A DNA stretch of 22,264 nucleotides. Origin: a virus. Every line of letters starts with the position of its first letter. Position 1 is the stretch's first letter. The DNA lies in the IMG/VR virus record IMGVR_UViG_3300042870_001990, positions 1 through 22,264 of that record. The stretch is one strand, 5' to 3'. Both the position numbers and the translations under genes were made by a program. The notes under the pieces were generated by a model. It saw only the letters and a program-made list of their open reading frames with translations. It ran no database searches and had not been told where the DNA came from. Shown here in pieces: positions 2,527 through 22,264 of the stretch.

Positions 2527-2952
2527 ATGCCCACCCAACGCGAAATCATCTTAACCGCCTTGGCAGATGCCTTTCGCACGATCCCGCATGTGCCGGTTCT
2601 GCGCGGCGAGGTGCTGCCTGAGCGCATCCCATCCGCAGGGCTGCTGATCCTGCGCGACGGCAACCCGGGCGATCCGGAGGTCACACTGTCCCCGCTGCGC
2701 TATCACTACCAGCAGCGGGCGGAACTTGAGGTCATCGTGCAGGCAAGCGGTGATCGTGATACACGATTTGACCAACTCATCGCCCGGATAGGTGCCTCCA
2801 TCGCTGTTGAGCGTACATTGGGTGGGCTCTGCGACTGGGTCGAGCCGGCAGCACCTGAGCCTGTCGATCTCGCTGTTGAAGGGGCAACCAGCCTAAAGGC
2901 AGCCGTTGTGCCCATCATCCTACATTACTCGCTGGCCGATCCACTTGGCTGA
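2527..2952 (+). CDS. Tail terminator-like protein (gpU position)
   Basis: A 141-residue protein starting MPTQREIILTALADAFRTIP. The pattern of an N-terminal helix, a central segment predicted as strands (LRYHYQQRAELEVIVQASG) and a C-terminal strand pair resembles tail terminator or tail completion proteins of the lambda gpU type. Position between the neck genes and the tail tube gene agrees. ATG 2527 was chosen because it gives a clean family-like N-terminus. The upstream GTG 2497 would add ten residues (IDFLSENNP...) and lies only 14 bases from the tRNA 5' end; no clear Shine-Dalgarno separates them. The 3' end overlaps the convergent bactofilin gene by 28 bases. Function is inferred mostly from place and size. 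Confidence 0.5.
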   Translation: MPTQREIILTALADAFRTIPHVPVLRGEVLPERIPSAGLLILRDGNPGDPEVTLSPLRYHYQQRAELEVIVQASGDRDTRFDQLIARIGASIAVERTLGGLCDWVEPAAPEPVDLAVEGATSLKAAVVPIILHYSLADPLG

Positions 2953-3299
2953 GCGGGTTCCGGGGGCGGGGTTATCATTCTCAGATGGCCCTCGATCATC
3001 GCCCCGGCTTCCACGGCCAGTTTGGAGTAATGAACTGAGCCGTTGATTTGACCGGAATGTGCAACCCGGACATCCTCCGCGATCACAGCGCCAACCACGA
3101 CGCCTTCAATCGTTGCCTGCTTGGCCTCAATGTCGCCCTTTACATCGGCCCAATGCTCAATCGTCACGATCTCACCGGTGATGTTGCCGACAACACGCGC
3201 TTGAACCACCAAGGGGCCGGTGCTGGTAATATCACCCGTGACTTCGAGATCCGGTGCGAGGACGGAAGGTTTTGCCGTGCTTGGTGTGAGAGTGGTCAT
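2925..3299 (-). CDS. Bactofilin-type polymer-forming protein
   Basis: A 124-residue protein with a core of repeated short beta-strands with Gly and Val/Ile at regular steps (VTGDITSTGPLVVQ, VVGNITGEIVTIE, VKGDIEAKQATIEG, INGSVHYSKLAVEAG, IEGHLRM). This is the right-handed beta-helix pattern of bactofilins, which form non-nucleotide-dependent filaments at membranes and cell poles. Short disordered tails flank the core, the C-tail being Pro-rich (PPPEPAQPSGSASE). ATG 3299 is preferred (GAAGG about ten bases upstream); ATG 3332 would add eleven residues. It is antisense to the late operon and overlaps the end of the tail terminator-like gene. A bactofilin is not a virion component in any phage I know, so a cargo role is inferred. 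Confidence 0.8.
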   Translation of the reverse strand: MTTLTPSTAKPSVLAPDLEVTGDITSTGPLVVQARVVGNITGEIVTIEHWADVKGDIEAKQATIEGVVVGAVIAEDVRVAHSGQINGSVHYSKLAVEAGAMIEGHLRMITPPPEPAQPSGSASE

Positions 3300-3429
3300 T
3301 CGAGGTCTGCCTTCGGGTCGTGTCTGCACCATAGGTGCGTTGGCTGAGCGCTTGTCCCAGCATGAATTGCCTCTGCGTCAAATGCAATTGCTGCTCCTCT
3401 AACCAAAATCCGCTGAAAAGGATACCAAA
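3300..3429. other. Divergent intergenic region between bactofilin and tail tube genes
   Basis: These 130 bases lie between the two outward-facing starts. The right side carries the tail tube ribosome binding site AAAAGGA at 3416-3422. The rest is less GC-rich than the flanks and is the natural place for a bactofilin promoter. The only candidate seen on the minus strand is a TTGACG hexamer near 3380, but no acceptable -10 box lies 16-18 bases further, so no promoter is called. Confidence 0.5.
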
Positions 3430-4817: not shown

Positions 4818-5044
4818 ACCAGCCAATAACTTTCGAGGGTTGGCTGGTCTGGGACCTGGTCGGCCGCCTTGGGGGTCAGTTGCGCATCGTCCCCGGCGCT
4901 GTGATCGGCTGGGACATGAACGCGGCCTTTGCGCTTGGTGCGTCCCTCGGCATTCCGGCCCCAGCGATCGCTGAACTTTTACCTGCCATCGAGGCGGTGA
5001 TGGTGCGTAAGGTAAATGACCGGCTCGGCTCAGGCGGCCTTTAG
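4724..5044 (+). CDS. T-like extension of the tail assembly chaperone (made by -1 frameshift, fused from 4380)
   Basis: Read after -1 slippage at 4718-4724, this adds 106 residues to the first 115 of the chaperone, giving a 221-residue GT-like protein. The added part has a Cys cluster C-x2-C-x3-C-x2-C (CAACGSVCPDC) like a zinc knuckle, then a compact domain (FEGWLVWDLVGRLGG; GWDMNAAFALGASLGI; IEAVMVRKVNDRL). No plausible start with a ribosome site is seen at its head. The first in-frame start-like codons lie inside the domain, so frameshift expression is the simplest explanation. In lambda the T domain binds the tail tube subunit and G binds the tape measure protein. The last 15 bases overlap the convergent higA gene. 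The G-rich linker and Cys cluster are direct observations; zinc binding is inferred. Confidence 0.65.
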   Translation, partial: RLIARAEWEFGGGDGYCAACGSVCPDCPTRLNQPITFEGWLVWDLVGRLGGQLRIVPGAVIGWDMNAAFALGASLGIPAPAIAELLPAIEAVMVRKVNDRLGSGGL

Positions 5045-5320
5045 AGGTGTGATGTGTGAGACGTCGATTGTCTCTCGGGCACGCGCCAAATCCCAAGCGC
5101 GCTGGAGGTTCATCCAATACTCTGGCGTGGTTGAGAAAAACTGAGCAAGCCGCATCGCAGTATCAATCGTGATGGCGGTCTGGCCTTTAACAAGGCGCTC
5201 GATACGGGTTCTCGGCACTTCGAGCCTGCCGGCGAGCGAAATCGGGCTCATGTCGAGTGGCATGAGATAAAGCTCCGCCAGGACTTCGCCCGGGTGGGAT
5301 GGATTGGTTACGAGGCTCAT
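5030..5320 (-). CDS. higA: HigA-type antitoxin (XRE helix-turn-helix)
   Basis: A 96-residue protein beginning MSLVTNPSHPGEVLAELYLMPLDMS, the hallmark start of the HigA addiction-module family. The helix-turn-helix is in the middle (LAGRLEVPRTRIERLVKGQTAIT, then TAMRLAQFFSTTPEYWMNLQRAWDL). It should neutralise the HigB toxin and repress its own operon. ATG 5320 was chosen because AGGAGGG (complement of 5327-5333) lies six bases upstream; this site overlaps the higB stop codon. In this family toxin precedes antitoxin, and that order is present here, with 11 bases between. The gene is antisense to the tail operon and its 3' end overlaps the T-like reading frame by 15 bases. Confidence 0.9.
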   Translation of the reverse strand: MSLVTNPSHPGEVLAELYLMPLDMSPISLAGRLEVPRTRIERLVKGQTAITIDTAMRLAQFFSTTPEYWMNLQRAWDLARARETIDVSHITPLKAA

Positions 5321-5331
5321 GTTTAGCCCTC

Positions 5332-5613
5332 CTAGTGATAGTCCAGAATCTCGACCTCGGCAGGTCCCTGATCGGTCCAGATGAAACAAATGCGCCATTG
5401 GCCGTTGATGCGCACCGAATGTTGTCCTGCACGGTCACCGCTCAAAGCTTCCAAATGGTTGCCGGGCGGGAACCGCAAGTCTTCGAGAACGACGGCCGCA
5501 TCCAAGGCTGAAAGCATGGCGCGCGTTCTCTTAACCAAGTCAGCAGGAAAGCCTTTGCCGAAGCGACCTTGAACCGCTCCAGCGGCAAGCTTTCCACGTG
5601 TGCTGAAGATCAT
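5332..5613 (-). CDS. higB: HigB-type toxin (RelE superfamily mRNA interferase)
   Basis: A 93-residue protein of HigB size. The family signature is present: a central segment with LVKRTRAMLSALDAAVVLEDLRFPPGNHLEALSGDRAGQ and a C-terminal strand pair (HSVRINGQWRICFIW...VEILDYH). The closing ...DYH with its terminal His matches the usual HigB end. Such toxins cut mRNA on the ribosome. ATG 5613 gives the normal N-terminus; ATGs at 5631 and 5628 would put the start inside the palindrome upstream. It forms an operon with higA and is probably repressed by HigA bound to the inverted repeat at 5620-5640. It lies antisense just before the tape measure gene. Confidence 0.88.
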   Translation of the reverse strand: MIFSTRGKLAAGAVQGRFGKGFPADLVKRTRAMLSALDAAVVLEDLRFPPGNHLEALSGDRAGQHSVRINGQWRICFIWTDQGPAEVEILDYH

Positions 5614-5619
5614 AATGGC

Positions 5620-5640
5620 ATGTATCATCATGTGATACAT
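5620..5640. promoter_or_regulatory. Palindromic operator of higBA
   Basis: A perfect inverted repeat with 8-bp arms, ATGTATCA and TGATACAT, around a 5-bp spacer TCATG. It lies seven bases upstream of the higB start and 17 bases before the tape measure start. Placement and symmetry are what is expected for the HigA-HigB autorepression site. It is the only clear AT-rich palindrome in this GC-rich stretch. Confidence 0.7.
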
Positions 5641-5657
5641 ATTGCAAGGGCAATACC

Positions 5658-8165
5658 GTGGCCGAAAAACGCATCTCTGTCCGGCTTGCCGCGGTGGGTG
5701 GCCGTCAAGTTCGTGCTGAGCTGGAAGGTGTGGGCCAGGCCGGATCCAAAGGCTTTGGACGTCTCTCACGCGAGATGGAGCTGGCCAACGCCCGTCTTGC
5801 GGGTTTTGCGCGCAAAGCCGGAATTGCCCTTGGAGCTGCGGCCGCGGCAGCGACAGCGTCGCTGGGCGTTATTGTGCGATCCACGGCACAGAGTGCTGCC
5901 GAGATCACCCAGTTTGCCCAGATCGCCAATGCCGCGCCGGAGGCTTTCCAGCGCTGGACGGCCGCATCGGTGACGGTCGGGATCGAACAAGAGAAACTCG
6001 CCGATATTCTGAAGGACGTGAACGACCGGGTGGGGGACTTCCTGCAGACGGGCGGCGGCCCGATGGCGGACTTTTTTGAGAAGATCGCGCCGAAGGTGGG
6101 GGTGACGGCTGAAGAGTTTGCACGGCTCTCGGGACCTGAGGCGCTGCAGCTTTATGTCTCAAGCTTGGAGAAGGCGGGCGTCAACAGCCAAGAGATGACC
6201 TTCTATCTCGAGGCGATGGCCTCGGATGCCACGCGGCTCATTCCCTTGCTGCAAGACGGTGGCGCGGAGATGGCGCGGTTGGGCGAGCGGGCGGCGGGGC
6301 TTGGGGTGGTGCTTGACCAAAGGGCGCTCAGCGCCTTGCGACGGGCAGAGTTGGCCCTGATCGGTGTGGGTCAGGTCTTTGAGGGCATGCGCAATCAGAT
6401 CGGCGCGGCTTTGGCGCCTGCGGTGGCGGCTCTCGCCGAGGGGTTTGTGCGGCTGGCGGAGGTTGGTGGGCCTATCAATCGGGCCTTCACCGCCGTAATC
6501 GACAATCTCGGCCGGCTGACAACCTATGCCGCAACTTTTGCGACGGTCATGGTGGGGCGCTGGGTGGTGGGATTGGCTGCTGCGGCCCTCTCCGTGAAGG
6601 GCCTCGCCACGGCGCTGGTCTTTCTGCGCGGCGCTTTGATACGCACTGGGATCGGCGCGCTCATCGTGGGCGCGGGCGACCTTGTTTACCAGTTCACGCA
6701 ACTTGTGGGCAAAGTCGGTGGGGTTGGCACCGCCTTCGGCCTCTTGCGTGATGTCGCGGCAGAGGCCTGGGATCGCCTTGCGCTGGCAGCCACAGCGGCG
6801 TGGTCGCGCGTTGAGGCCGGCTGGGTGGACACACAGGCGGGGATTTACGGTGGGCTGCAATCGGCGCTGTCGGCTGTGGTAGCCTGGGGCAATTCTGCTG
6901 TCGGGACGTTCCAGGGCGCTTTTGACGGGGTGAAGGCGATCTGGGGCGCGCTGCCGCAGGCCATCGGGGATTTTGCCTATCAAGCGGCGAATGGACTGAT
7001 CGGTGGTGTCGAGTCGATGTTGAATGCGGTGGTTACGCGCATCAACAGCTTCATCGAAGGTCTGAACGCGGCGCTGGCCCTCCTGCCTGATTGGGCGACG
7101 GGTGAAGCTGGCCTAAGAATCGGCACACTCGAGGCGGTGGACCTCGGCGGAATTACCAATCCCTTCGAAGGCGCAGCCTTGGCGGCAGGCACGGCTGCTG
7201 CTGACGCGTTCCGTGCGGCCATGGGCAAGACCTATATCAAGGCACCTGATCTCTTCGGTGGCATGGCGGAGGCAGCACGCGGTCGCGCTTCCGGCTATGG
7301 TGAGGCGGCGGGTATGCTCTCGGAGGCCGCCTCCCGCCCGATGAACGCTTGGGAGGCCCTCAAGGCAGCAATCACCGGCGCGGGGAGAGAGGGCGAGGAC
7401 GCTTTGGCTGGTGCTACTGAGGCGGCGGGCGCTGTATCCGATGGCTTTGATGCGGCAGGCCAAGCCGCTGGTGGGGCGGGCGGTGCGGCCAAGAAGGCGG
7501 CAGAAGAAGCGGCGACCGGCTGGGCGCAGGTTACAAAGTCCCTCGCGGACTATGCCAAGGGCGCGATGGATTGGGGCAAAGGGCTTGGCGAGACGCTGAC
7601 CTCGGCCTTCTCTTCAGCGGAAAGCGCGTTCCGGCAGTTTGTGACCACCGGCAAGTTTGACTTCAAATCGCTGGTCTCCTCGATCTTGGCGGACCTCGCG
7701 ACGCTTGCCTTCAAGAATGCAGTGTTGGGCCCACTTGCTTCCGCACTTTCGGGCATCTTTGGCGGTGGGATCTTTGGGGGTGGGGCAGCGGCTGCCGCAA
7801 ACCCTATGGTGAACGCGAGCATCTGGCATACGGGCGGCATGGTGGGTGCGGGCGCGCCGATGCGCGCGGTGCCAGTCACCGCCTTTGCAGGTGCCCCTCG
7901 GCTGCATACAAGTGGCTGGGCAGGACTTCGACCTGATGAGGTTCCTGCGATCTTGCAGCGTGGAGAACGGGTGCTGAACCGTCGTGAGGCGGCTGGGTAT
8001 GGACGGGGCGCTGGCACCGGCGTAACCGTGAACATCGACGCACGCGGGGCGCAGATGGGCGTGGCCGAGCAGATTGATGCGCGGCTGCGGGCTGCCATCC
8101 CTGAAATCGCCCGCATCGCGAAGGAAAGCGTGGCCGATGGGCGGCGCCGGGGCCAGGTGATCTGA
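5658..8165 (+). CDS. Tail tape measure protein
   Basis: An 835-residue protein that sets tail length and probably leads DNA entry. The N-terminus (KRISVRLAAVGGRQVRAELEGVG) is typical of lambda-like tape measures. It is followed by an Ala-rich hydrophobic segment near residues 52-73, a second hydrophobic stretch near residues 295-345, helical Ala/Gly-rich regions, and a C-terminal block (FRQFVTTGKFDFKSLVSSILADLA, a Gly-rich GIFGGGIFGGG run, EVPAILQRGERVLNRREA) matching the lambda gpH C-terminal region. At roughly 0.15 nm per residue the tail would be about 125 nm. Start GTG 5658 has AAGGG at 5646-5650, seven bases upstream. The higB operator lies just before it. It follows the chaperone gene across the inserted higBA. 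Confidence 0.92.
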   Translation: MAEKRISVRLAAVGGRQVRAELEGVGQAGSKGFGRLSREMELANARLAGFARKAGIALGAAAAAATASLGVIVRSTAQSAAEITQFAQIANAAPEAFQRWTAASVTVGIEQEKLADILKDVNDRVGDFLQTGGGPMADFFEKIAPKVGVTAEEFARLSGPEALQLYVSSLEKAGVNSQEMTFYLEAMASDATRLIPLLQDGGAEMARLGERAAGLGVVLDQRALSALRRAELALIGVGQVFEGMRNQIGAALAPAVAALAEGFVRLAEVGGPINRAFTAVIDNLGRLTTYAATFATVMVGRWVVGLAAAALSVKGLATALVFLRGALIRTGIGALIVGAGDLVYQFTQLVGKVGGVGTAFGLLRDVAAEAWDRLALAATAAWSRVEAGWVDTQAGIYGGLQSALSAVVAWGNSAVGTFQGAFDGVKAIWGALPQAIGDFAYQAANGLIGGVESMLNAVVTRINSFIEGLNAALALLPDWATGEAGLRIGTLEAVDLGGITNPFEGAALAAGTAAADAFRAAMGKTYIKAPDLFGGMAEAARGRASGYGEAAGMLSEAASRPMNAWEALKAAITGAGREGEDALAGATEAAGAVSDGFDAAGQAAGGAGGAAKKAAEEAATGWAQVTKSLADYAKGAMDWGKGLGETLTSAFSSAESAFRQFVTTGKFDFKSLVSSILADLATLAFKNAVLGPLASALSGIFGGGIFGGGAAAAANPMVNASIWHTGGMVGAGAPMRAVPVTAFAGAPRLHTSGWAGLRPDEVPAILQRGERVLNRREAAGYGRGAGTGVTVNIDARGAQMGVAEQIDARLRAAIPEIARIAKESVADGRRRGQVI

Positions 8166-15340: not shown

Positions 15341-16024
15341 TCAGTTCTTGCCGCAGCACTGCTTGTATTTGCGACCCGAGCCGCAGGGGCATGGATCGTT
15401 GCGGCCGGGGCGCGGCGCGGATTTGAACGGCTGGCCGGGGAGATTGGCCGGGACCCCGCCGACCAGTTCGGGGCGCGATTGGTGCAGGATCGTCGCCACG
15501 CAGTTCGGGATCAGATCAGGCGCCTCTTGGTCGATCTGGTCGATCTCTTCATCGCTGAACTTGCTGTTCCCCGTGTAGATATCCTGCAGCGCCATGATGA
15601 AAATCATGGTCTCACGGGTCTCGTCATCGGCCCGATCGAGGAGCGCCTCCCAGGCCTTGGGCCTCAAGGCCATGGCGCGTGTGAAGCCATCAACCCAAGG
15701 TTCCCAGAGGGTCTCGTCGCTGTTCGTGTCGATCTCGTAGATCGGTTCGACCCAGAGCGATTGCGTGATCCGGGCAGCGACATCGTTGTAATGGGCCATC
15801 ACCGCGCCGATCGTCTCCTGCGCCGAGGCGAGGTCGGGGAATTGCGCATCTCCCGTGACACCCCAGACCTGCGAGAGCCAATCGGAGGGCGGGATCATCT
15901 CGGGGCAGGCCAGAAGGCCCGTCACGAAGCCATCCAGCTCGCTGACCGTCATAGGTTCGTTCTCGACGGGCAGCGCCTGCAAGAGGTCTTCCAGACGGTC
16001 GAGCCGTTCGTCGTCCTGATCCAT
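15341..16024 (-). CDS. UPF0149/YecA-like protein with C-terminal SEC-C motif
   Basis: A 227-residue protein. The N-terminal two thirds match the UPF0149/YecA family ([31 protein letters not shown], then [20 protein letters not shown]). The C-terminus is a SEC-C zinc-binding motif ([17 protein letters not shown]), as in SecA and many small host proteins. ATG 16024 is fixed by AGGAGG seven bases upstream; an upstream ATG at 16063 lies before this ribosome site. The role of such proteins is poorly known; the SEC-C motif binds zinc and contacts ribosomes or SecB in SecA. It is antisense and not structural, so it is cargo. It separates the lysis genes from the fibre operon. Confidence 0.85.
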
Positions 16025-16126
16025 GACCCGTTCCTCCTGCAGCTGCGCTCCCCTTAGCCGCAATGGCCTGAATTCTCAATCGAACTCGTTCCGACCAGGC
16101 CGCTCGGATGGTCCGCGGAGGCATGC
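16025..16126. other. Divergent intergenic region between UPF0149 and fibre operon
   Basis: About 100 bases with ribosome sites at both ends: AGGAGG for the minus-strand gene and GGAGG at 16117-16121 for the plus-strand fibre operon. Promoters for both directions should lie here or be absent for the plus side if late readthrough is used. A minus-strand TTGAGA box exists, but without a good -10 box, so no promoter is called. Confidence 0.5.
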
Positions 16127-16489: not shown

Positions 16490-16717
16490 ATGGCGACTGC
16501 GCTGGACCTGCGACCGTTCACGGGGCCGATCCGCATCTTTGTCACCTCGGAGGCGCCGATCGCGCTGCGGCTTTCCACAGGGCCGATCGGGATCCGCGTC
16601 CTCGGTCAGCCGGGGCCGCAGGGATTGACTGGCCCCCAAGGCGACAAGGGTGATCAGGGCGCGCCCGGCATCACGATCCTGCCCACTGACACTCCCATCA
16701 ACGGAGGATTTTTCTGA
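16490..16717 (+). CDS. Small fibre protein with collagen-like repeat
   Basis: A 75-residue protein. The N-terminal part (residues 1-40) has two similar halves (FTGPIRIFVTSEAPIALRL, then STGPIGIRVLG). A collagen-like G-X-Y stretch follows (GPQGLTGPQGDKGDQGAPG, six triplets), then a short end PTDTPINGGFF. Collagen-like triplets are common in phage tail fibres and give a trimeric stem. Its stop overlaps the next start by one base, so it is coupled to the large fibre gene. The short length suggests it forms a stem or joint rather than a receptor-binding tip. Confidence 0.7.
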   Translation: MATALDLRPFTGPIRIFVTSEAPIALRLSTGPIGIRVLGQPGPQGLTGPQGDKGDQGAPGITILPTDTPINGGFF

Positions 16718-17961
16718 TGGCGAACACGATCCAGCTCAAACGTCGCGTCTCGGGCGTGGCAGGCGCACCCGCTGCGCTCAAATCCGGCGAGATCGCTCAT
16801 AATGAGGTCGATGACACGCTCTATGTCGGCAAGGGCGATGACGGAGCAGGCAATGCGACCTCGATCGTTCCGGTGGCCGGAAGCGGGGGGTTCCTCGCGC
16901 TCATCGGCACACAGACCCTGGGCGGGTCCAAGACTTTCTCTCTCGTCCCCAAATCTGCCCAGGACGCCAGTGCCGCGACCGATCTCGTACGCAAGTCCCA
17001 GCTGGATGCCGGCCTTGCCGCGAAGGCCGCGCTCAGCCATAGCCATGCCATCGCAGATGTCACCGGTCTGCAGGGCGCACTCGATGGAAAGCTTGGCGCG
17101 ACGGCGAATGCCGTCTCGGCAAGCAAACTGGCCACCGCCCGCACGATCGCGCTAGCAGGTGATCTTTCCGGATCTGTCAGCTTTGACGGCTCGGCCAATG
17201 TCAGCATTACAGCCGTGGTAGCCGATGACAGCCACGCCCATGTCATCGCCAATGTGGACGGTCTTCAGGCCGCACTTGACGCGAAGGCTCCGCTAGCTTC
17301 GCCCGCGCTAACCGGCACGCCGACTGCGCCCACGGCCATCTCGGGGACGAACACCACCCAGGTGGCAACGACCGCCTTCGTGCAGCAGGCCATTGTCGAC
17401 TTTGGCCCCGGCGACATGCTGGCTGCCACTTATGACACAGATGCCGATGGCAAGGTCGATGCAGCGGAGGTGGCAGATGCGGCACCCTGGGCTGGTATCA
17501 CCGATAAGCCCACGAGCTTTCCGCCCTCGACCCACAGCCATACGATCTCGCAGGTCACCGGCCTGCAGACCGCGCTTGATGCCAAGGCGGCTCTGGCCTC
17601 GCCGGCTTTGACCGGTACGCCGACCGCTCCAACGGCCGTTGCGGGCACCAACACGGCTCAGATCGCGACGACCGCCTTTGTCGCCGCCGCCATCGGCGCG
17701 TTGATTGATGCCGCACCCGGCGCAATGGACACACTGAACGAGTTGGCGGCGGCCCTCGGGGACGATCCGAGCTTCGCAACCACGGTGACGAATGCGTTGG
17801 CGGGCAAGCTCTCCGCCGCCTCGAACCTCTCGGATCTGCCGAACAAGGCAACAGCCCGCACCAACCTCGGGCTTGGCTCGATTGCCACGCAAGCGGCGAA
17901 CAGCGTCGCGATCACCGGCGGGTCGATCGACGGGATTGCGCTCGACGGGGGCACGTTCTGA
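16717..17961 (+). CDS. Tail fibre protein with 100-residue repeat and EF-hand-like loop
   Basis: A 414-residue fibre protein. The N-terminus (MANTIQLKRRVSGVAGAPAALKSGEIAHNE) is shared in pattern with the next gene. Tail fibre repeats follow: SHSHAIADVTGLQ, DDSHAHVIANVDGLQ and STHSHTISQVTGLQ, each with ..LDAK or ..LDGK. Two near-identical segments (residues 183-226 and 283-326) lie exactly 100 residues apart. Between them DTDADGKVDAAE (residues 240-251) matches the EF-hand calcium loop. The end has LSDLPNKATARTNLGLGSIATQ, a common fibre motif also seen in the gene at 12324. Function: long side or tip fibre, probably trimeric. No S74 domain is present in this protein; the next gene has one. Confidence 0.85.
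   Translation: MANTIQLKRRVSGVAGAPAALKSGEIAHNEVDDTLYVGKGDDGAGNATSIVPVAGSGGFLALIGTQTLGGSKTFSLVPKSAQDASAATDLVRKSQLDAGLAAKAALSHSHAIADVTGLQGALDGKLGATANAVSASKLATARTIALAGDLSGSVSFDGSANVSITAVVADDSHAHVIANVDGLQAALDAKAPLASPALTGTPTAPTAISGTNTTQVATTAFVQQAIVDFGPGDMLAATYDTDADGKVDAAEVADAAPWAGITDKPTSFPPSTHSHTISQVTGLQTALDAKAALASPALTGTPTAPTAVAGTNTAQIATTAFVAAAIGALIDAAPGAMDTLNELAAALGDDPSFATTVTNALAGKLSAASNLSDLPNKATARTNLGLGSIATQAANSVAITGGSIDGIALDGGTF
17263..17394 (+). repeat. Intragenic fibre repeat, copy 1
   Basis: Codes for residues 183-226 of the fibre protein, with the core ASPALTGTPTAPTA. Similar at DNA level to copy 2, 300 bases downstream, with mostly silent differences, which indicates old duplication under protein selection. 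Confidence 0.8.
17563..17694 (+). repeat. Intragenic fibre repeat, copy 2
   Basis: Codes for residues 283-326 of the fibre protein; the same pattern as copy 1 with exact 300-base spacing. Both copies carry the ATTAFV motif at their end. Confidence 0.8.
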
Positions 17962-17963
17962 CC

Positions 17964-18557
17964 ATGGCCAACACGCTTCTCGTCAAGCGCACGACCGTGG
18001 CAGGCCGTGTGCCTACCACGGCGCAGCTGGCCGCGGGGGAACTGGCCGTCAATGTCACCGACGGCAAGCTCTACCTCAAGAAAAGCACGAGCGGGGTCGA
18101 AAGCATCGTCGATGTGACATCGGCCGCGCTCACTGACGCCCAGATCTTCGCCAAGGTCACAGCGCAGGATGGCGCGGGGTCCGGCCTTGATGCCGACCTG
18201 CTCGATGGCAGCCATGCCAGTGCTTTCGCACTCCTGAGCGGAGCGACCTTCTCTGGCACGGTGACCGCACCGAACTTCGTCTCATCCTCGGACGCGCGGC
18301 TCAAAGCCGATATTGCGCCAATCCAGGACGCTCTTCCGAAGGTGCAGGCCCTAACCGGCGTCACCTTCACGATGGTAGGCAGCAATCTGCGGCAGATGGG
18401 TCTCATCGCACAGCAAGTCAAAGTTGTCGCGCCGGAGGCCGTCGTCGAGGCCGAGGGCATCTTGCGCCTCGCTTATGGCAATCTCGTGGGTCTCCTCGTC
18501 GAGGCCATCAAAGACCTCGCAGCAGAGGTCGATCAGTTGAAAAGGACCGCGCGATGA
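17964..18557 (+). CDS. Second tail fibre protein with S74 intramolecular chaperone domain
   Basis: A 197-residue protein. The N-terminus (MANTLLVKRTTVAGRVPTTAQLAAGELAVN) resembles the start of the fibre gene before it. A DLLDGSHASAF fibre motif follows at about residues 79-89, then an S74 domain (NFVSSSDARLKADIAPI ... MGLIAQQVKVVAPEAVV ... LAYGNLVGLLVEAIKDLAAEVDQLK). Ser109 and Lys114 match the self-cleavage pair. The domain is very close to the one in the gene at 12324, over protein and partly over DNA (the GTGACCGC.CCGAACTTCGTCTC stretch). It starts two bases after the fibre stop and its own stop overlaps the next start. It may act as chaperone for the fibre assembly or be a fibre by itself. 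Confidence 0.85.
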   Translation: MANTLLVKRTTVAGRVPTTAQLAAGELAVNVTDGKLYLKKSTSGVESIVDVTSAALTDAQIFAKVTAQDGAGSGLDADLLDGSHASAFALLSGATFSGTVTAPNFVSSSDARLKADIAPIQDALPKVQALTGVTFTMVGSNLRQMGLIAQQVKVVAPEAVVEAEGILRLAYGNLVGLLVEAIKDLAAEVDQLKRTAR

Positions 18558-19456
18558 TCGAGACAGGGCTTTATGCCATTACGAACTGCGGCGTCCCGCG
18601 CCATTATGCCGTAGACATCAAGCCGGACTATGTCGCCGTCGCGGTCTTTGAGTTTTCGGCGCCTGGCACCTCGAGCGCTATGGGCGGGGTCATGCTTTGG
18701 GCAGACCTGCTCGCCCATCTCGAGGCGCGGCCGGCCTTCGGTAATCAGGCAGGCTTTGTCGATCTATCCCATAACGAGAGCTTCATCCCCGATCTGCCGG
18801 GCGCGCCTGTGGGCGCGGTCTACAAGGGCAGGTCCTGCATCTTCGCTGCTGGCATGCGCGGACATGACGAGTTGGTCGATTACTCGCTGATCGATATGGC
18901 TGTCGGCGCCGATGGGCGGCCGCTGTCGTGGCGGAACCGCTTTGCCCAATCCGCGCGCGAGAAGGTCGATACGTCCTTTCGGCATCGGGCGCGGGAAGGG
19001 ATATCCAATGCGCTTGTGGTCTTCCTGCCCGTGGTCGTGCCTTTCGATCAGGCACGCGTGGAGGTACTTTGCCAGATCCCACCCATCCTTCTGAACGGCA
19101 CGGTGCTGGCAGGGACCATCGATGACGCCACGATCCCCAAAGATGGGCTCTGGTACAAGCAGTTCTACTTCCATGGCGTTGGTCCGCAGATTGCCACCGT
19201 GATGGCTGGCGGACGCGTGGATGTGCCTGTCGCACTTCGGTGGAATGCCGATGGCTCGGCCTTTGCACATCCCGTGATGCTGAAACTCGAGGCAGATGCG
19301 GGCTACCTGCCGAAGCGGCGCCTGCTGACCGCACCAGATGGAACTGGCAGCTTCGCCGTCGAGGCTGCGGGTCTTTCCCCCGGCGATCGCATTACCGTGA
19401 AACTCAACACCGAGCATTACACCGCGATCGGGAAGATTGTGGTGGAGGTGGTCTGA
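18554..19456 (+). CDS. Unknown fibre-operon protein with Ig-like C-terminus
   Basis: A 300-residue protein that I do not recognise. It has a mixed N-terminal half (GLYAITNCGVPRHYAVDIKPDYVAVAVFEF; SHNESFIPDLPGAP; CIFAAGMRGHDELVDYSLIDMAV) and a C-terminal strand-rich segment (residues about 215-300, MAGGRVDVPVALRWNADG ... SFAVEAAGLSPGDRITVKLN) resembling an Ig-like domain. No signal or membrane helix is seen. The start overlaps the S74 protein stop (ATGA) and the stop shares a base with the oxygenase-like gene, so it is coupled on both sides. It may be a fibre or host-surface binding protein, or an accessory part of the modification system downstream. Confidence 0.55.
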   Translation: MIETGLYAITNCGVPRHYAVDIKPDYVAVAVFEFSAPGTSSAMGGVMLWADLLAHLEARPAFGNQAGFVDLSHNESFIPDLPGAPVGAVYKGRSCIFAAGMRGHDELVDYSLIDMAVGADGRPLSWRNRFAQSAREKVDTSFRHRAREGISNALVVFLPVVVPFDQARVEVLCQIPPILLNGTVLAGTIDDATIPKDGLWYKQFYFHGVGPQIATVMAGGRVDVPVALRWNADGSAFAHPVMLKLEADAGYLPKRRLLTAPDGTGSFAVEAAGLSPGDRITVKLNTEHYTAIGKIVVEVV

Positions 19457-20196
19457 TGGAATTTCACACCACAAGCGAGTTCCAGCTGATCTACCCGAGC
19501 TTTGTGCTGCACAAGCATTGGGAGATGCCGGAGGGCTTCAACGACCGGCTTCATGCGCTTGCGGTCCACGATGCCGAGACCAATCGGATCCGCGAGGTTA
19601 GCGATGGGCGCAATGTCGGGGACCTGACCAATCACCTTGGCCATCTGCGGCACAACTTTCTGATGGACCGGCGAGACCCAGCGCTGGCCGTTTTGGCGCA
19701 GATGGTGGCTGCGGGCGTGCGGGAATATCTTCAGCTGGCCTATGGCTACGGCCACACTGGCGATATCTGCATGATGTCGGACACGTTCTGGCAGCGCCGC
19801 GCTGCCCGCGAAAACGTGGGCATCAACACCCACACCCATATCCAGACCGACATCGTCTGCACCTACTACCCGCGGGTGGCGCTGGACGCCGATTGCCCGG
19901 ACACCTCGCTGCATCGCGGGGCGGTGCGGTTTTATGATCCTGCGAATGTTGGCAAGCGGCTTTGGCCCTGCCGGAACCCCGACGCCTATGTCGGCGGCTG
20001 GTATGCGGTCTATCCGAAGGCAGGCTCGATGCTCGTCTTCGAAGGGCATGTTCCCCACGACAGCACTTACTTCGAGGGCGAGGAGCGGATGTGTATCCCG
20101 GTCCTCTGTTCGCTCGAACTCCCGAATTCTCACCGCAAGGTCAGGCTCGCAGAGATCTTGGCCCATCAGGCGCAAGGAGGCAGCTATGGCGTATAA
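19456..20196 (+). CDS. 2OG-Fe(II) oxygenase-like protein, phage-type (Oxy_5 group)
   Basis: A 246-residue protein. Pattern of the double-stranded beta-helix oxygenases of the PF13759 type: NTHTHIQTDIVCTYY aligns residue by residue with the HxHp...SGvyY motif (His126 and His128 as metal ligands). It is followed by AVRFYDPANVG, then AVYPKAGSMLVFEGHVPHDS, which is the FPswlpH motif (His201), and an Arg at 211 (GEERMCIPV) as usual for 2OG binding. Such enzymes hydroxylate proteins or small molecules. The start overlaps the preceding stop, and the last bases overlap the next start. Placed directly before a Cys-rich small protein, a second oxygenase and a radical SAM gene, so a protein-modifying role on a fibre-type substrate is inferred. 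Confidence 0.72.
   Translation: MEFHTTSEFQLIYPSFVLHKHWEMPEGFNDRLHALAVHDAETNRIREVSDGRNVGDLTNHLGHLRHNFLMDRRDPALAVLAQMVAAGVREYLQLAYGYGHTGDICMMSDTFWQRRAARENVGINTHTHIQTDIVCTYYPRVALDADCPDTSLHRGAVRFYDPANVGKRLWPCRNPDAYVGGWYAVYPKAGSMLVFEGHVPHDSTYFEGEERMCIPVLCSLELPNSHRKVRLAEILAHQAQGGSYGV
20174..20180 (+). promoter_or_regulatory. Ribosome binding site AAGGAGG of the Cys-tail protein
   Basis: A full consensus Shine-Dalgarno, five bases before ATG 20186 and inside the coding end of the oxygenase. Among the coupled genes here this is by far the strongest site, so the small Cys-tail protein is probably made in larger amount than the enzymes around it. Confidence 0.65.
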
Positions 20197-20500
20197 GGTT
20201 GGAACGACCATCGTGATTGATGACAGCGGAAACGTGGACTGGTCGCGCATCGCCAACAAGCCCGCGATCGGTACGGGCGATGTGACGGGTGTGACGGTGG
20301 TCAACGGGACCCCAACGTCAGGTGCCACAGGTTCCTCGACTGGCGCGGTCTATGGCACAGGGACGATCAATACCAACTTCAACGGTACAACGACCTACAA
20401 CTGCTACGTTGAAAGCCTTTCGGGCGGTGGCACCGCAGGGGCGGTCACGATCACGGCCAACCGCAAGACCTTCAACTGCAACTGCGCCTGCCGGTGCTGA
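20186..20500 (+). CDS. Small fibre-like protein with alternating-Cys C-terminus (candidate substrate of the modification enzymes)
   Basis: A 104-residue protein. Residues 1-30 (MAYKVGTTIVIDDSGNVDWSRIANKPAIG) have the W-x-x-I-x-x-KP motif also seen in the fibre at 16717 (PWAGITDKP). The middle is Gly/Thr/Ser/Asn-rich and beta-like, without charge. The end is TFNCNCACRC: Cys at 98, 100, 102 and 104, the last as terminal residue; one more Cys at 73. An alternating C-x-C-x-C-x-C tail with Asn, Ala and Arg between is unusual, and could be a site for thioether or disulfide linkages or metal binding. ATG 20186 has AAGGAGG at 20174-20180. It lies between two oxygenase-like genes and just before a radical SAM protein, so it is the natural substrate candidate. 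That link is an inference. Confidence 0.8.
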   Translation: MAYKVGTTIVIDDSGNVDWSRIANKPAIGTGDVTGVTVVNGTPTSGATGSSTGAVYGTGTINTNFNGTTTYNCYVESLSGGGTAGAVTITANRKTFNCNCACRC

Positions 20501-20502
20501 CA

Positions 20503-21129
20503 ATGGAGGCTCAAAGCACCACCCTGGAGCTCTGGCCGACGCGGGTCACCTTCTTTGAAACGCCGGTGGACTGGGACGCTGACCGGCGGCTTGCCGACGA
20601 AGCAATCGCGGCTGTAACGGGCAATTCTACGCGCCTGTCTGCGGCCGAGCGCCGAGTGCGGGGCATTCTCGAGCGTAGTGAAGCCGGCCAAGCCCTGAAA
20701 TCCCACCTCTTCGCCTGCGCGCGTGCGGTCCTCGGCCCCTGGGCCCAATATCTCGACCCCTCCCATTGCGAAAACCGCGCCCTCGTCATCGAGCCCGGTG
20801 GCTTCATCTCGACCCACAAGGACAGCCGGGAGGGGGATCTCACTTGCGTACACTTCCTCACCGGCAGCGGGGCGGGGCGGCCGGTGAACTCTGTTGGCAC
20901 CCCGCGTTTTGTGATCGAGGATCCGTCGCGCTACTTTGATGAGGGACGGCTGCCCTATGAGAGCCGTCATGGCTACTCGGTCAATCCGCGGCCAGGGCTC
21001 TCAGTCTTCTTCCCTTCCCACATTCCCCACAACCAGCACCCCTATGAGGGGAGCGCGCCGCATGTGCAGGTCGTCGCGAACTTCCGCGTCAACTTGCCTG
21101 TGGCGATCGAGGAAAGGTTTTTTGACTGA
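20503..21129 (+). CDS. Second 2OG-Fe(II) oxygenase-like protein
   Basis: A 208-residue protein with a beta-helix oxygenase pattern: PGGFISTHKDSREGDLTCVHFLTG gives an H-x-D pair (His105, Asp107). FVIEDPSRY follows, then PGLSVFFPSHIPHNQHPYEG, which holds the distal His (His176), and a closing VVANFRVNL strand. It differs clearly from the oxygenase at 19456, which has an H-x-H type motif, so the two are not simple copies. ATG 20503 was chosen; the GTG at 20494 overlapping the previous stop would add three residues. It begins two bases after the Cys-tail protein, and its stop shares a base with the radical SAM start. The substrate is unknown. Confidence 0.68.
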   Translation: MEAQSTTLELWPTRVTFFETPVDWDADRRLADEAIAAVTGNSTRLSAAERRVRGILERSEAGQALKSHLFACARAVLGPWAQYLDPSHCENRALVIEPGGFISTHKDSREGDLTCVHFLTGSGAGRPVNSVGTPRFVIEDPSRYFDEGRLPYESRHGYSVNPRPGLSVFFPSHIPHNQHPYEGSAPHVQVVANFRVNLPVAIEERFFD

Positions 21130-22264
21130 TGTGGTTCGACCTGACGCTCGAAGCGCGTGACGGCAGCCGCCATCACATGCGCTACAACCCGCACACATCG
21201 GAATGCGAGGGGCTGCCGCTGCCGGTGAACCCGGGAACCTTCGCGCCGGTACCGCGTGTCGCCAAAGACAAGCCCCTCGGAAAATCGCGCGCTCCCCGCA
21301 TCCTGAAGATCCAGCTCGGGCTCTCGTGCAACTATGCCTGCAGCTATTGCAGCCAGGCCTTCCAGATTGCGGATGCGACAGTCTCGAAGTTTGCGGATGT
21401 CGAGCACTTCCTGACCGAGCTGGACGGCTGGATTGCCCAAGCCCCAGAAAAGATCGAGCTTTGGGGCGGGGAGCCGTTTCTGTATTGGGCCAAGATCAAG
21501 CGGCTGATCCCGGCGCTGGCGGAGCGGTTCCCGAAGGCAGCCTTCTCAATCATCACGAATGGGTCGCTCCTTGACCGTGAAAAGCTCAACTTCATTGTCG
21601 CGCATGACATCGCCATCACGATCTCGCATGACGGGCCCGGCCAGCATTTGCGCGGGCCTGATCCTTTTGATGATCCCGAAAAGCGGCGCTGGATTGAAGC
21701 TCTGCTGGCGGAGCGGCCGGGGAGGACCGGCTTCAACGCAGTGCTGACGCGGGGGAACCATGATCTCAGGGCGCTGAAGGCATGGTTCGCTGAAAAGGTC
21801 GGGCCGGACATCTTCGTGGGGCTCGAGGGCGTGGTGAACGTTTATGACGCCGCGACTGCCATCGGGACGGGGCGGTTTGAGCCCGCAGAACTGAACAGCC
21901 TGACGTGGTCGGTATTCGAGGCGCTGGTTGAGGATCCGAACGCCTTCGGTCTCGGGGAGCGCATCAACGAATTCTACGCCTCGATCCAACGGCGGCGGCC
22001 GATCCAAGCCCTCGGTCAGAAATGTGGAATGGACAGCGCGGACGCCATCGCAGTTGATCTGCGTGGGAACGTCATGACCTGTCAGAACACAGGTGCCAAG
22101 GGGGCGCACAAGATCGGTCATGTTGCTGACTTTGACGCAATCGCGCTCGACACTGCGACGCATTTTGCCTTCCGGGAGGAATGCATGTCATGCCCGGTCG
22201 TTCAGCTCTGCAAGGGATCGTGCATGTTCCTCGAGGGGGAGTTCTTCAAGCAGAGCTGCGCGAA
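21129..22264 (+). CDS. Radical SAM/SPASM protein (partial, 3' end outside window)
   Basis: At least 378 residues, open to the right edge. It has the radical SAM site CNYACSYC (Cys67, Cys71, Cys74), a GGEP motif at 113-116 for SAM binding, and TIM-barrel strands (FSIITNG; ITISHDG). A SPASM domain follows: Cys299-x13-Gly313-x4-Cys318, then Cys352-x2-Cys355-x5-Cys361-x3-Cys365 and Cys377, which is the complete seven-Cys plan for two auxiliary iron-sulfur clusters. SPASM enzymes modify ribosomally made peptides (thioether, carbon-carbon or other links) or proteins. No leader-binding RRE domain is seen at the N-terminus; the first 55 residues are a separate small segment (DGSRHHMRYNPHTSECEGLPLPVNPG). 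It is coupled to the oxygenase before it. Confidence 0.93.
   Translation, partial: MWFDLTLEARDGSRHHMRYNPHTSECEGLPLPVNPGTFAPVPRVAKDKPLGKSRAPRILKIQLGLSCNYACSYCSQAFQIADATVSKFADVEHFLTELDGWIAQAPEKIELWGGEPFLYWAKIKRLIPALAERFPKAAFSIITNGSLLDREKLNFIVAHDIAITISHDGPGQHLRGPDPFDDPEKRRWIEALLAERPGRTGFNAVLTRGNHDLRALKAWFAEKVGPDIFVGLEGVVNVYDAATAIGTGRFEPAELNSLTWSVFEALVEDPNAFGLGERINEFYASIQRRRPIQALGQKCGMDSADAIAVDLRGNVMTCQNTGAKGAHKIGHVADFDAIALDTATHFAFREECMSCPVVQLCKGSCMFLEGEFFKQSCA

Follow-up and report, generated by a model that had tools for sequence, protein, structure and literature searches.

The described systems closest to the one considered here are the ranthipeptide systems (SCIFF/CteB, freyrasin/PapB and NxxcA/NxxcB), in which a radical S-adenosylmethionine (SAM) enzyme with a SPASM domain adjoins a cysteine-rich substrate carrying Asn, Asp or Thr near the cysteines. 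In NxxcA, a beta-thioether connects Asn20 with Cys23, an N-x-x-C spacing (PMC8326336). Another related system is that of QhpD in quinohemoprotein amine dehydrogenase maturation, where a radical SAM enzyme cross-links the cysteines of a protein subunit; this system is non-viral and serves a host metabolic enzyme. The anaerobic sulfatase-maturating enzymes (anSME) share the fold and the SPASM domain, and act on a cysteine of a protein substrate. We know of no radical SAM cassette dedicated to a structural protein of a virus, and the open PubMed Central literature yielded no description of one, nor of any radical SAM enzyme whose substrate is a phage fibre. In this study, we report a four-gene cassette at positions 19456-22264 of the viral record IMGVR_UViG_3300042870_001990 (IMG/VR), the whole of which, 22,264 bases, is the window analysed here. 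The cassette combines a radical SAM/SPASM gene and two 2-oxoglutarate (2OG) oxygenase-like genes with a gene for a short protein ending in alternating cysteines, and we consider it a probable dedicated maturation cassette that modifies the tip of a phage fibre. The tail and the enzyme are linked in both directions, and the window is one case of a widespread pattern.

The four genes overlap or nearly touch one another and close a siphophage tail module. An earlier note on this DNA, which read them as a candidate phage-borne system for modifying fibre tips, had their coordinates and overlaps right. The genes, together with their conserved upstream neighbour and the motifs discussed below, are as follows (aa, amino acids).

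18554..19456, plus strand: "fib300", a conserved partner protein of 300 aa, with homologues in 89 of the 117 loci described below
19456..20196, plus strand: 2OG-Fe(II) oxygenase-like protein 1 (2OG-1); PF13759, PHROG 81 and TIGR02466, with an HTH...H metal-site motif
20186..20500, plus strand: Cys-tail protein of 104 aa, the proposed substrate; N-terminal anchor, variable middle and C-terminal Asn-Cys tail
20474..20497, plus strand: C-terminal tail NCNCACRC, residues 97-104, the proposed modification site
20503..21129, plus strand: 2OG-Fe(II) oxygenase-like protein 2 (2OG-2); PHROG 81 and AlphaFold2 fold, with HKD...H
21129..22262, plus strand: radical SAM/SPASM enzyme of the PHROG 1802 type; gene cut at the record end
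21327..21350, plus strand: CNYACSYC, the CxxxCxxC motif for the SAM-cleaving [4Fe-4S] cluster
22023..22259, plus strand: SPASM region with seven invariant cysteines (C299, C318, C352, C355, C361, C365 and C377)

The ATG of 2OG-1 overlaps the TGA of its upstream neighbour. The radical SAM gene is incomplete, with 378 aa vs 425 aa in a 95%-identical relative (L004; about 47 residues missing); all its catalytic cysteines lie within the window despite the truncation.

The association between tail and enzyme was counted from both sides. For the forward count, 117 distinct relatives of the radical SAM enzyme in phages and prophages were used, each with at least 4 kb of upstream DNA. An open reading frame (ORF) with alternating cysteines was located within 5 kb upstream on the same strand in 102/117 (91 with the tail at the protein end and 11 with the tail before a Hint domain), and on the opposite strand, taken as a control, in 5/117. 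End-type tails on the same strand were present upstream in 91/117 and in the downstream control in 2/56 (Fisher p = 2.5e-22). The 15 forward misses include at least five loci with a true tail, farther off or spelled otherwise (L086, L091, L094, L121 and L218). The reverse scan was a DNA search for NCNCNCNC in 2.9 million viral contigs, independent of the enzyme, and returned at least 120 stretches. Among the matches listed, the radical SAM gene accompanied every ORF ending in NCNCNCNC that had at least 4 kb downstream (53/53 raw, 41/41 distinct), and accompanied the same DNA pattern elsewhere than at an ORF end in 1/9 distinct cases, that one being a true tail fused to a Hint domain (deduplicated Fisher p = 1.7e-8). 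Single-linkage clustering of scaffolds was not used, because shared fibre repeats merge families.

The co-occurrence of Cys tail and SPASM gene that the earlier note had proposed to look for is thus borne out in other phages and prophages, as is the gene order: fib300, 2OG, tail, 2OG and radical SAM follow one another in 24/24 near relatives having the module. Two of the findings that the note had named as speaking against its reading were looked for. No Cys-tail protein lacking the enzyme turned up among the matches listed that had at least 4 kb of downstream DNA, and membership of the radical SAM gene in an unrelated downstream cluster was rejected, since the genes 3' of it are unrelated between hosts. 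At two loci, L029 and L030, the same N-terminal anchor occurs with no (Asn-Cys)n (NC) tail, and no radical SAM or 2OG gene was present in the DNA examined.

The 104-aa protein ends ...RKTFNCNCACRC. In 19 aligned relatives, most of the first 15 residues (the anchor MAYKVGTT..) are invariant, the middle is variable or swapped outright, and the NCNC-x-C-x-C end is again invariant. A chance origin of the tail was rejected, because the end is kept in all 19 although the middle varies or is replaced. The pattern suggests a protein held by its anchor, with a body free to vary and a tip that is kept constant. No family in Pfam or PHROG matched the 104-aa protein, known fibre families included; the earlier description of a small fibre-like protein with an alternating-Cys tail therefore holds for the tail, which is real and invariant, while "fibre-like" follows only from position and the N-terminal anchor. 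Tailed proteins at other loci do bear fibre-type domains. Among 630 cysteines in 120 distinct runs, the residue before the cysteine is Asn in 67%, Ala in 12% and Asp in 10%, and the tail stops exactly at a cysteine in 72/107 end-type tails. Since synonymous codons for both Asn and Cys are mixed in the tails, selection appears to act on the protein. The tailed partners measure about 70-700 aa and are anchored at the N-terminus with the tail at the other end; they do not have the form of the small leader-bearing precursors of PapB and SCIFF (a form that does not apply to QhpD).

Three routes bring the tail to the end of a protein, namely a stop codon, a Hint domain or an S74 chaperone. The Hint domain starts where the Cys run ends, and in three cases PF05203 or PF14623 scores above cut-off; gp028 of Achromobacter phage JWF, which reads ...NCNCDCNCNCSCFPAGT..., is an example (PF05203 above cut-off). 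At L194, a Peptidase_S74 domain (autoproteolytic chaperone) follows the tail, also above cut-off. Hint and S74 domains self-cleave, and the tail is predicted to end at or beside the mature C-terminus. Some NC-tailed fibres thereby resemble known self-processing phage fibres, which have these domains, in carrying one right after the tail; unlike in those fibres, cleavage here would expose a tail linked to a radical SAM enzyme.

Several variants of the tail were observed. At L086:3-518, a locus with the same enzyme family, the tail is made of CKCKCKC/CQC repeats. At L054:5488-5981 and L247:7478-7981, two short alternating-Cys proteins stand in tandem before a single radical SAM gene. Loci L116, L122, L157, L165 and L181 encode another class of short protein, ending HTHxFYDDY(S/G)T(A/N)CNCNCNC..., with same-strand radical SAM relatives, mostly weaker, at four of the five (not L165).

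The identity of the radical SAM/SPASM enzyme was confirmed by PF04055 (Pfam) and TIGR04085 (SPASM), both above cut-off, and by PHROG 1802 at 2e-52. In an alignment of 39 diverse relatives, the CxxxCxxC cysteines C67, C71 and C74 are invariant, as are the seven cysteines and the glycine of the SPASM pattern CX9-15GX4C-CX2CX5CX3C-C, with fitting spacings. The AlphaFold2 model of the 95%-identical full-length relative (pLDDT, the predicted local distance difference test, 92) gave CteB as top structural match (Z 23.4 over residues 1-395), followed by ChlB, anSME (Z 21.4) and TigE, all of which modify peptides or proteins; QhpD and PapB were outside the comparison list, which is evidence neither for nor against them. 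The SPASM segment CGMD..GNVLTC resembles CGSG..GDIYPC of CteB and is without the extra cysteines of CGMNGTCTC in anSME, a pattern compatible with an auxiliary cluster that may have a free site for a substrate thiol. The nearest NCBIfam models are PapB and other maturases of ribosomally synthesised and post-translationally modified peptides, and QhpD aligns over nearly the whole radical SAM-SPASM length.

The locus resembles the ranthipeptide systems in having a SPASM enzyme beside a cysteine-rich putative substrate, in its CteB-like structure, in its seven-Cys SPASM region and in the N-x-x-C contained within NCNC. It differs from them in that the proposed substrate is the C-terminus of a fibre-type protein, in having 2OG partners, in scores far under the curated models and in the N-terminal part of the enzyme model, which holds only a short beta element and no clear leader-binding domain. 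The QhpD system has neither NC repeats nor a 2OG partner, and the phage system, unlike anSME, has neither the extra cysteine nor a sulfatase motif.

That the two oxygenase-like proteins belong to the 2OG class, as the earlier note had it, was upheld by PHROG 81 (1.9e-7 for 2OG-1 and 1.3e-5 for 2OG-2) and by the fold of 2OG-2. PF13759 (4.4e-5 and 0.013; scores 24.2 and 16.3 vs a cut-off of 27) stayed below its curated cut-off for both, as did TIGR02466 (1.1e-6) for 2OG-1. Because both proteins are under the Pfam cut-off, the family call rests on PHROG, the fold and two metal-ligand histidines, H103 and H174, which are invariant in 36 aligned sequences. The 2OG-2 model (pLDDT 85) matches 3bvc, 2rg4, Pseudomonas P4H and PHD2, in agreement with a double-stranded beta-helix bearing two metal-ligand histidines. 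The protein prolyl-4-hydroxylases among these are the closest named folds, although sequence identity to them is just about 11-18%. Some loci hold other 2OG subfamilies; one partner gene passed PF13640, and a weak match to Asp/Asn-hydroxylases was also seen. Flanking of the proposed substrate by 2OG enzymes, another point of the note, is constant in the 24 near relatives; over all loci these enzymes are accessory, as 2OG-profile genes occur in only 64/117, and their being essential parts was rejected as a general rule. The core pair is the NC tail and the radical SAM enzyme.

Genomics thus supports the fibre-tip modification system proposed in the note, while we infer the modification and the receptor role. 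A fibre-type protein would carry a C-terminal (Asn/Asp/Ala-Cys)n tail at or near its mature C-terminus. The radical SAM/SPASM enzyme would bind this tail, which is likely its substrate, with strong support from the conserved pairing, and would take a hydrogen from a residue next to a cysteine or close by. The sulfur of the cysteine would then be joined to that residue in a thioether cross-link, in the manner of QhpD-, CteB- or NxxcB-type reactions. Thioether formation is the nearest chemistry, because the nearest models include PapB and QhpD, the nearest structure is that of CteB and NCNC holds N-x-x-C; by this analogy, the chance that the bond is a thioether from Cys to Asn or Asp is about even. 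Where 2OG oxygenases are encoded, in roughly half of the phages, one or two of them may then hydroxylate residues of that protein. The resulting tip would be compact, chemically locked and oxidation-proof, and we propose that it serves adsorption or receptor binding because the cassette sits in the fibre operon and the body is variable.

Several points weigh against this proposal. The cassette is known here from genes and predicted folds, and its substrate would be a fibre-type protein, unlike the small leader-core peptides of other systems. The radical SAM enzyme scores far under every curated maturase cut-off (PapB 70 vs 340, SCIFF 32.5 vs 425, QhpD 46 vs 453), so that homology does not tell which reaction it carries out. 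About half of the loci have no 2OG enzyme. Oxygen inactivates radical SAM enzymes while 2OG enzymes require it, and alanine, which supplies part of the tail partners, is not a usual residue to accept a non-alpha thioether. The enzyme also occurs, with no fibre tails detected, in a chromosomal clade (Variovorax, Ramlibacter and others).

The tail could also be the substrate of other radical chemistry, such as formylglycine formation of the anSME type, carbon-carbon cross-links, epimers or dehydro residues, which would yield a reactive or rigid tip. The anSME structure ranks among the top matches and aligns over the full radical SAM-SPASM length, ChlB and TigE are close in the same ranking, and the gene of one isolate is annotated "anaerobic sulfatase-maturating enzyme". 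However, the enzyme is without the extra SPASM-region cysteine of anSME, scores 39 vs a curated cut-off of 349, and has partners in whose tails the C/S-x-P-x-R motif was not found; we regard such chemistry as possible and clearly less probable than the cassette reading as a whole.

An unlikely explanation is that the (Asn-Cys)n tail forms a metal- or Fe-S-binding or disulfide-locked tip, with the radical SAM enzyme helping to load it or acting elsewhere. Other phage tips have HxH iron sites, and alternating fibre cysteines could align in the same way. Such a tip would nevertheless leave the constant SPASM peptide-modifying partner unexplained, would have no need of the Asn bias, and finds no cluster-assembly genes prominent among the recurrent neighbours. 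Hitch-hiking without functional contact is strongly disfavoured and very improbable in our estimate: the fibre module, a place where cargo genes collect, does hold both tail and enzyme, but their association is nearly complete in both directions (both Fisher values above) across relatives of about 35-45% identity with differing gene orders, and at L029 and L030, where the anchor is kept, tail and enzyme are absent together.

Under the preferred reading, a modified fibre tip, the enzyme chemistry would be of a known kind, that of SPASM maturases, and would be new as a kind of virion maturation. Read cautiously, the system may be a variant of SPASM protein maturation. With somewhat less assurance than for the cassette itself, we favour a new class of viral protein maturation, in which hundreds of phages would place radical-made cross-links, thioether or other, in the C-terminal (Asn-Cys)n tail of the receptor-touching tip, often with 2OG hydroxylation and with Hint or S74 self-cleavage exposing the tail. 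If true, sequence would not predict the part of the virion that touches the host, a chemically modified peptide, and this would matter for receptor binding, host-range prediction and tail-fibre models. The phage family PHROG 1802, so far filed under "other", would gain a function, and work on peptide cross-linking would be supplied with many natural pairs of substrate and enzyme, some of them from hosts that can be cultured. It may also help to explain the 11-12 radical SAM genes of Campylobacter phages, "highly unusual" to their describers (PMC2853527).

Matches in bacterial genomes came from Rhodobacteraceae, Limnohabitans and other Comamonadaceae, Rhodospirillales and others. Thalassobacter stenotrophicus CECT 5294 has at least four separate copies of the radical SAM gene (L239, L240, L243 and L297), and the cultured Achromobacter phages JWF and 2-1 also gave matches. 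Phage JWF is temperate and can be induced by UV (PMC3899368). Ten loci with no tail detected fall mostly into two clades of bacterial genomes, one of Variovorax/Ramlibacter and a gammaproteobacterial metagenome-assembled genome (MAG), the other of Sulfuritalea/Sulfuricella. At two of these loci, a small ORF with NC[NE]V and DCGC[FA]ISP lies directly upstream of the enzyme (L251:7636-7929 and L263:7452-7925; Variovorax and the gammaproteobacterial MAG) and perhaps encodes a free-standing precursor peptide.

In Campylobacter phage CP220, gp140 (L315:25932-27536; NC_027997 160932-162536) contains a CDCNYCT-type repeat of six 21-bp units, the sole intragenic repeat noted by its describers (PMC2853527). 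Farther downstream, at 2.2 kb, is gp136, a radical SAM gene of the SPASM type, and the pair is possibly a distant version of the tail-enzyme system.

Upstream of the cassette, the window carries a siphophage-type structural module with PHROG matches to a major head protein, tape measure, distal tail protein and central fibre. Two further genes belong to the same gene run as the cassette.

16717-17961 and 17964-18557, plus strand: two tail-fibre genes with PHROG tail fibre matches

They are followed by fib300, probably a virion protein; the C-terminus of one relative weakly matches the Ig-like domain Big_1. A DNA comparison of positions 19456-21126 with the phage isolate collection gave no match. 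By eye, three other regions of the window stood out, all on the minus strand: two small ORFs amid the tail genes (5030-5769) resemble a HigB/HigA toxin-antitoxin pair, an ORF within the head-tail module (2925-3332) is bactofilin-like, and an ORF at 15341-16063 is UPF0149/YecA-like, with a SEC-C-like motif at its end.

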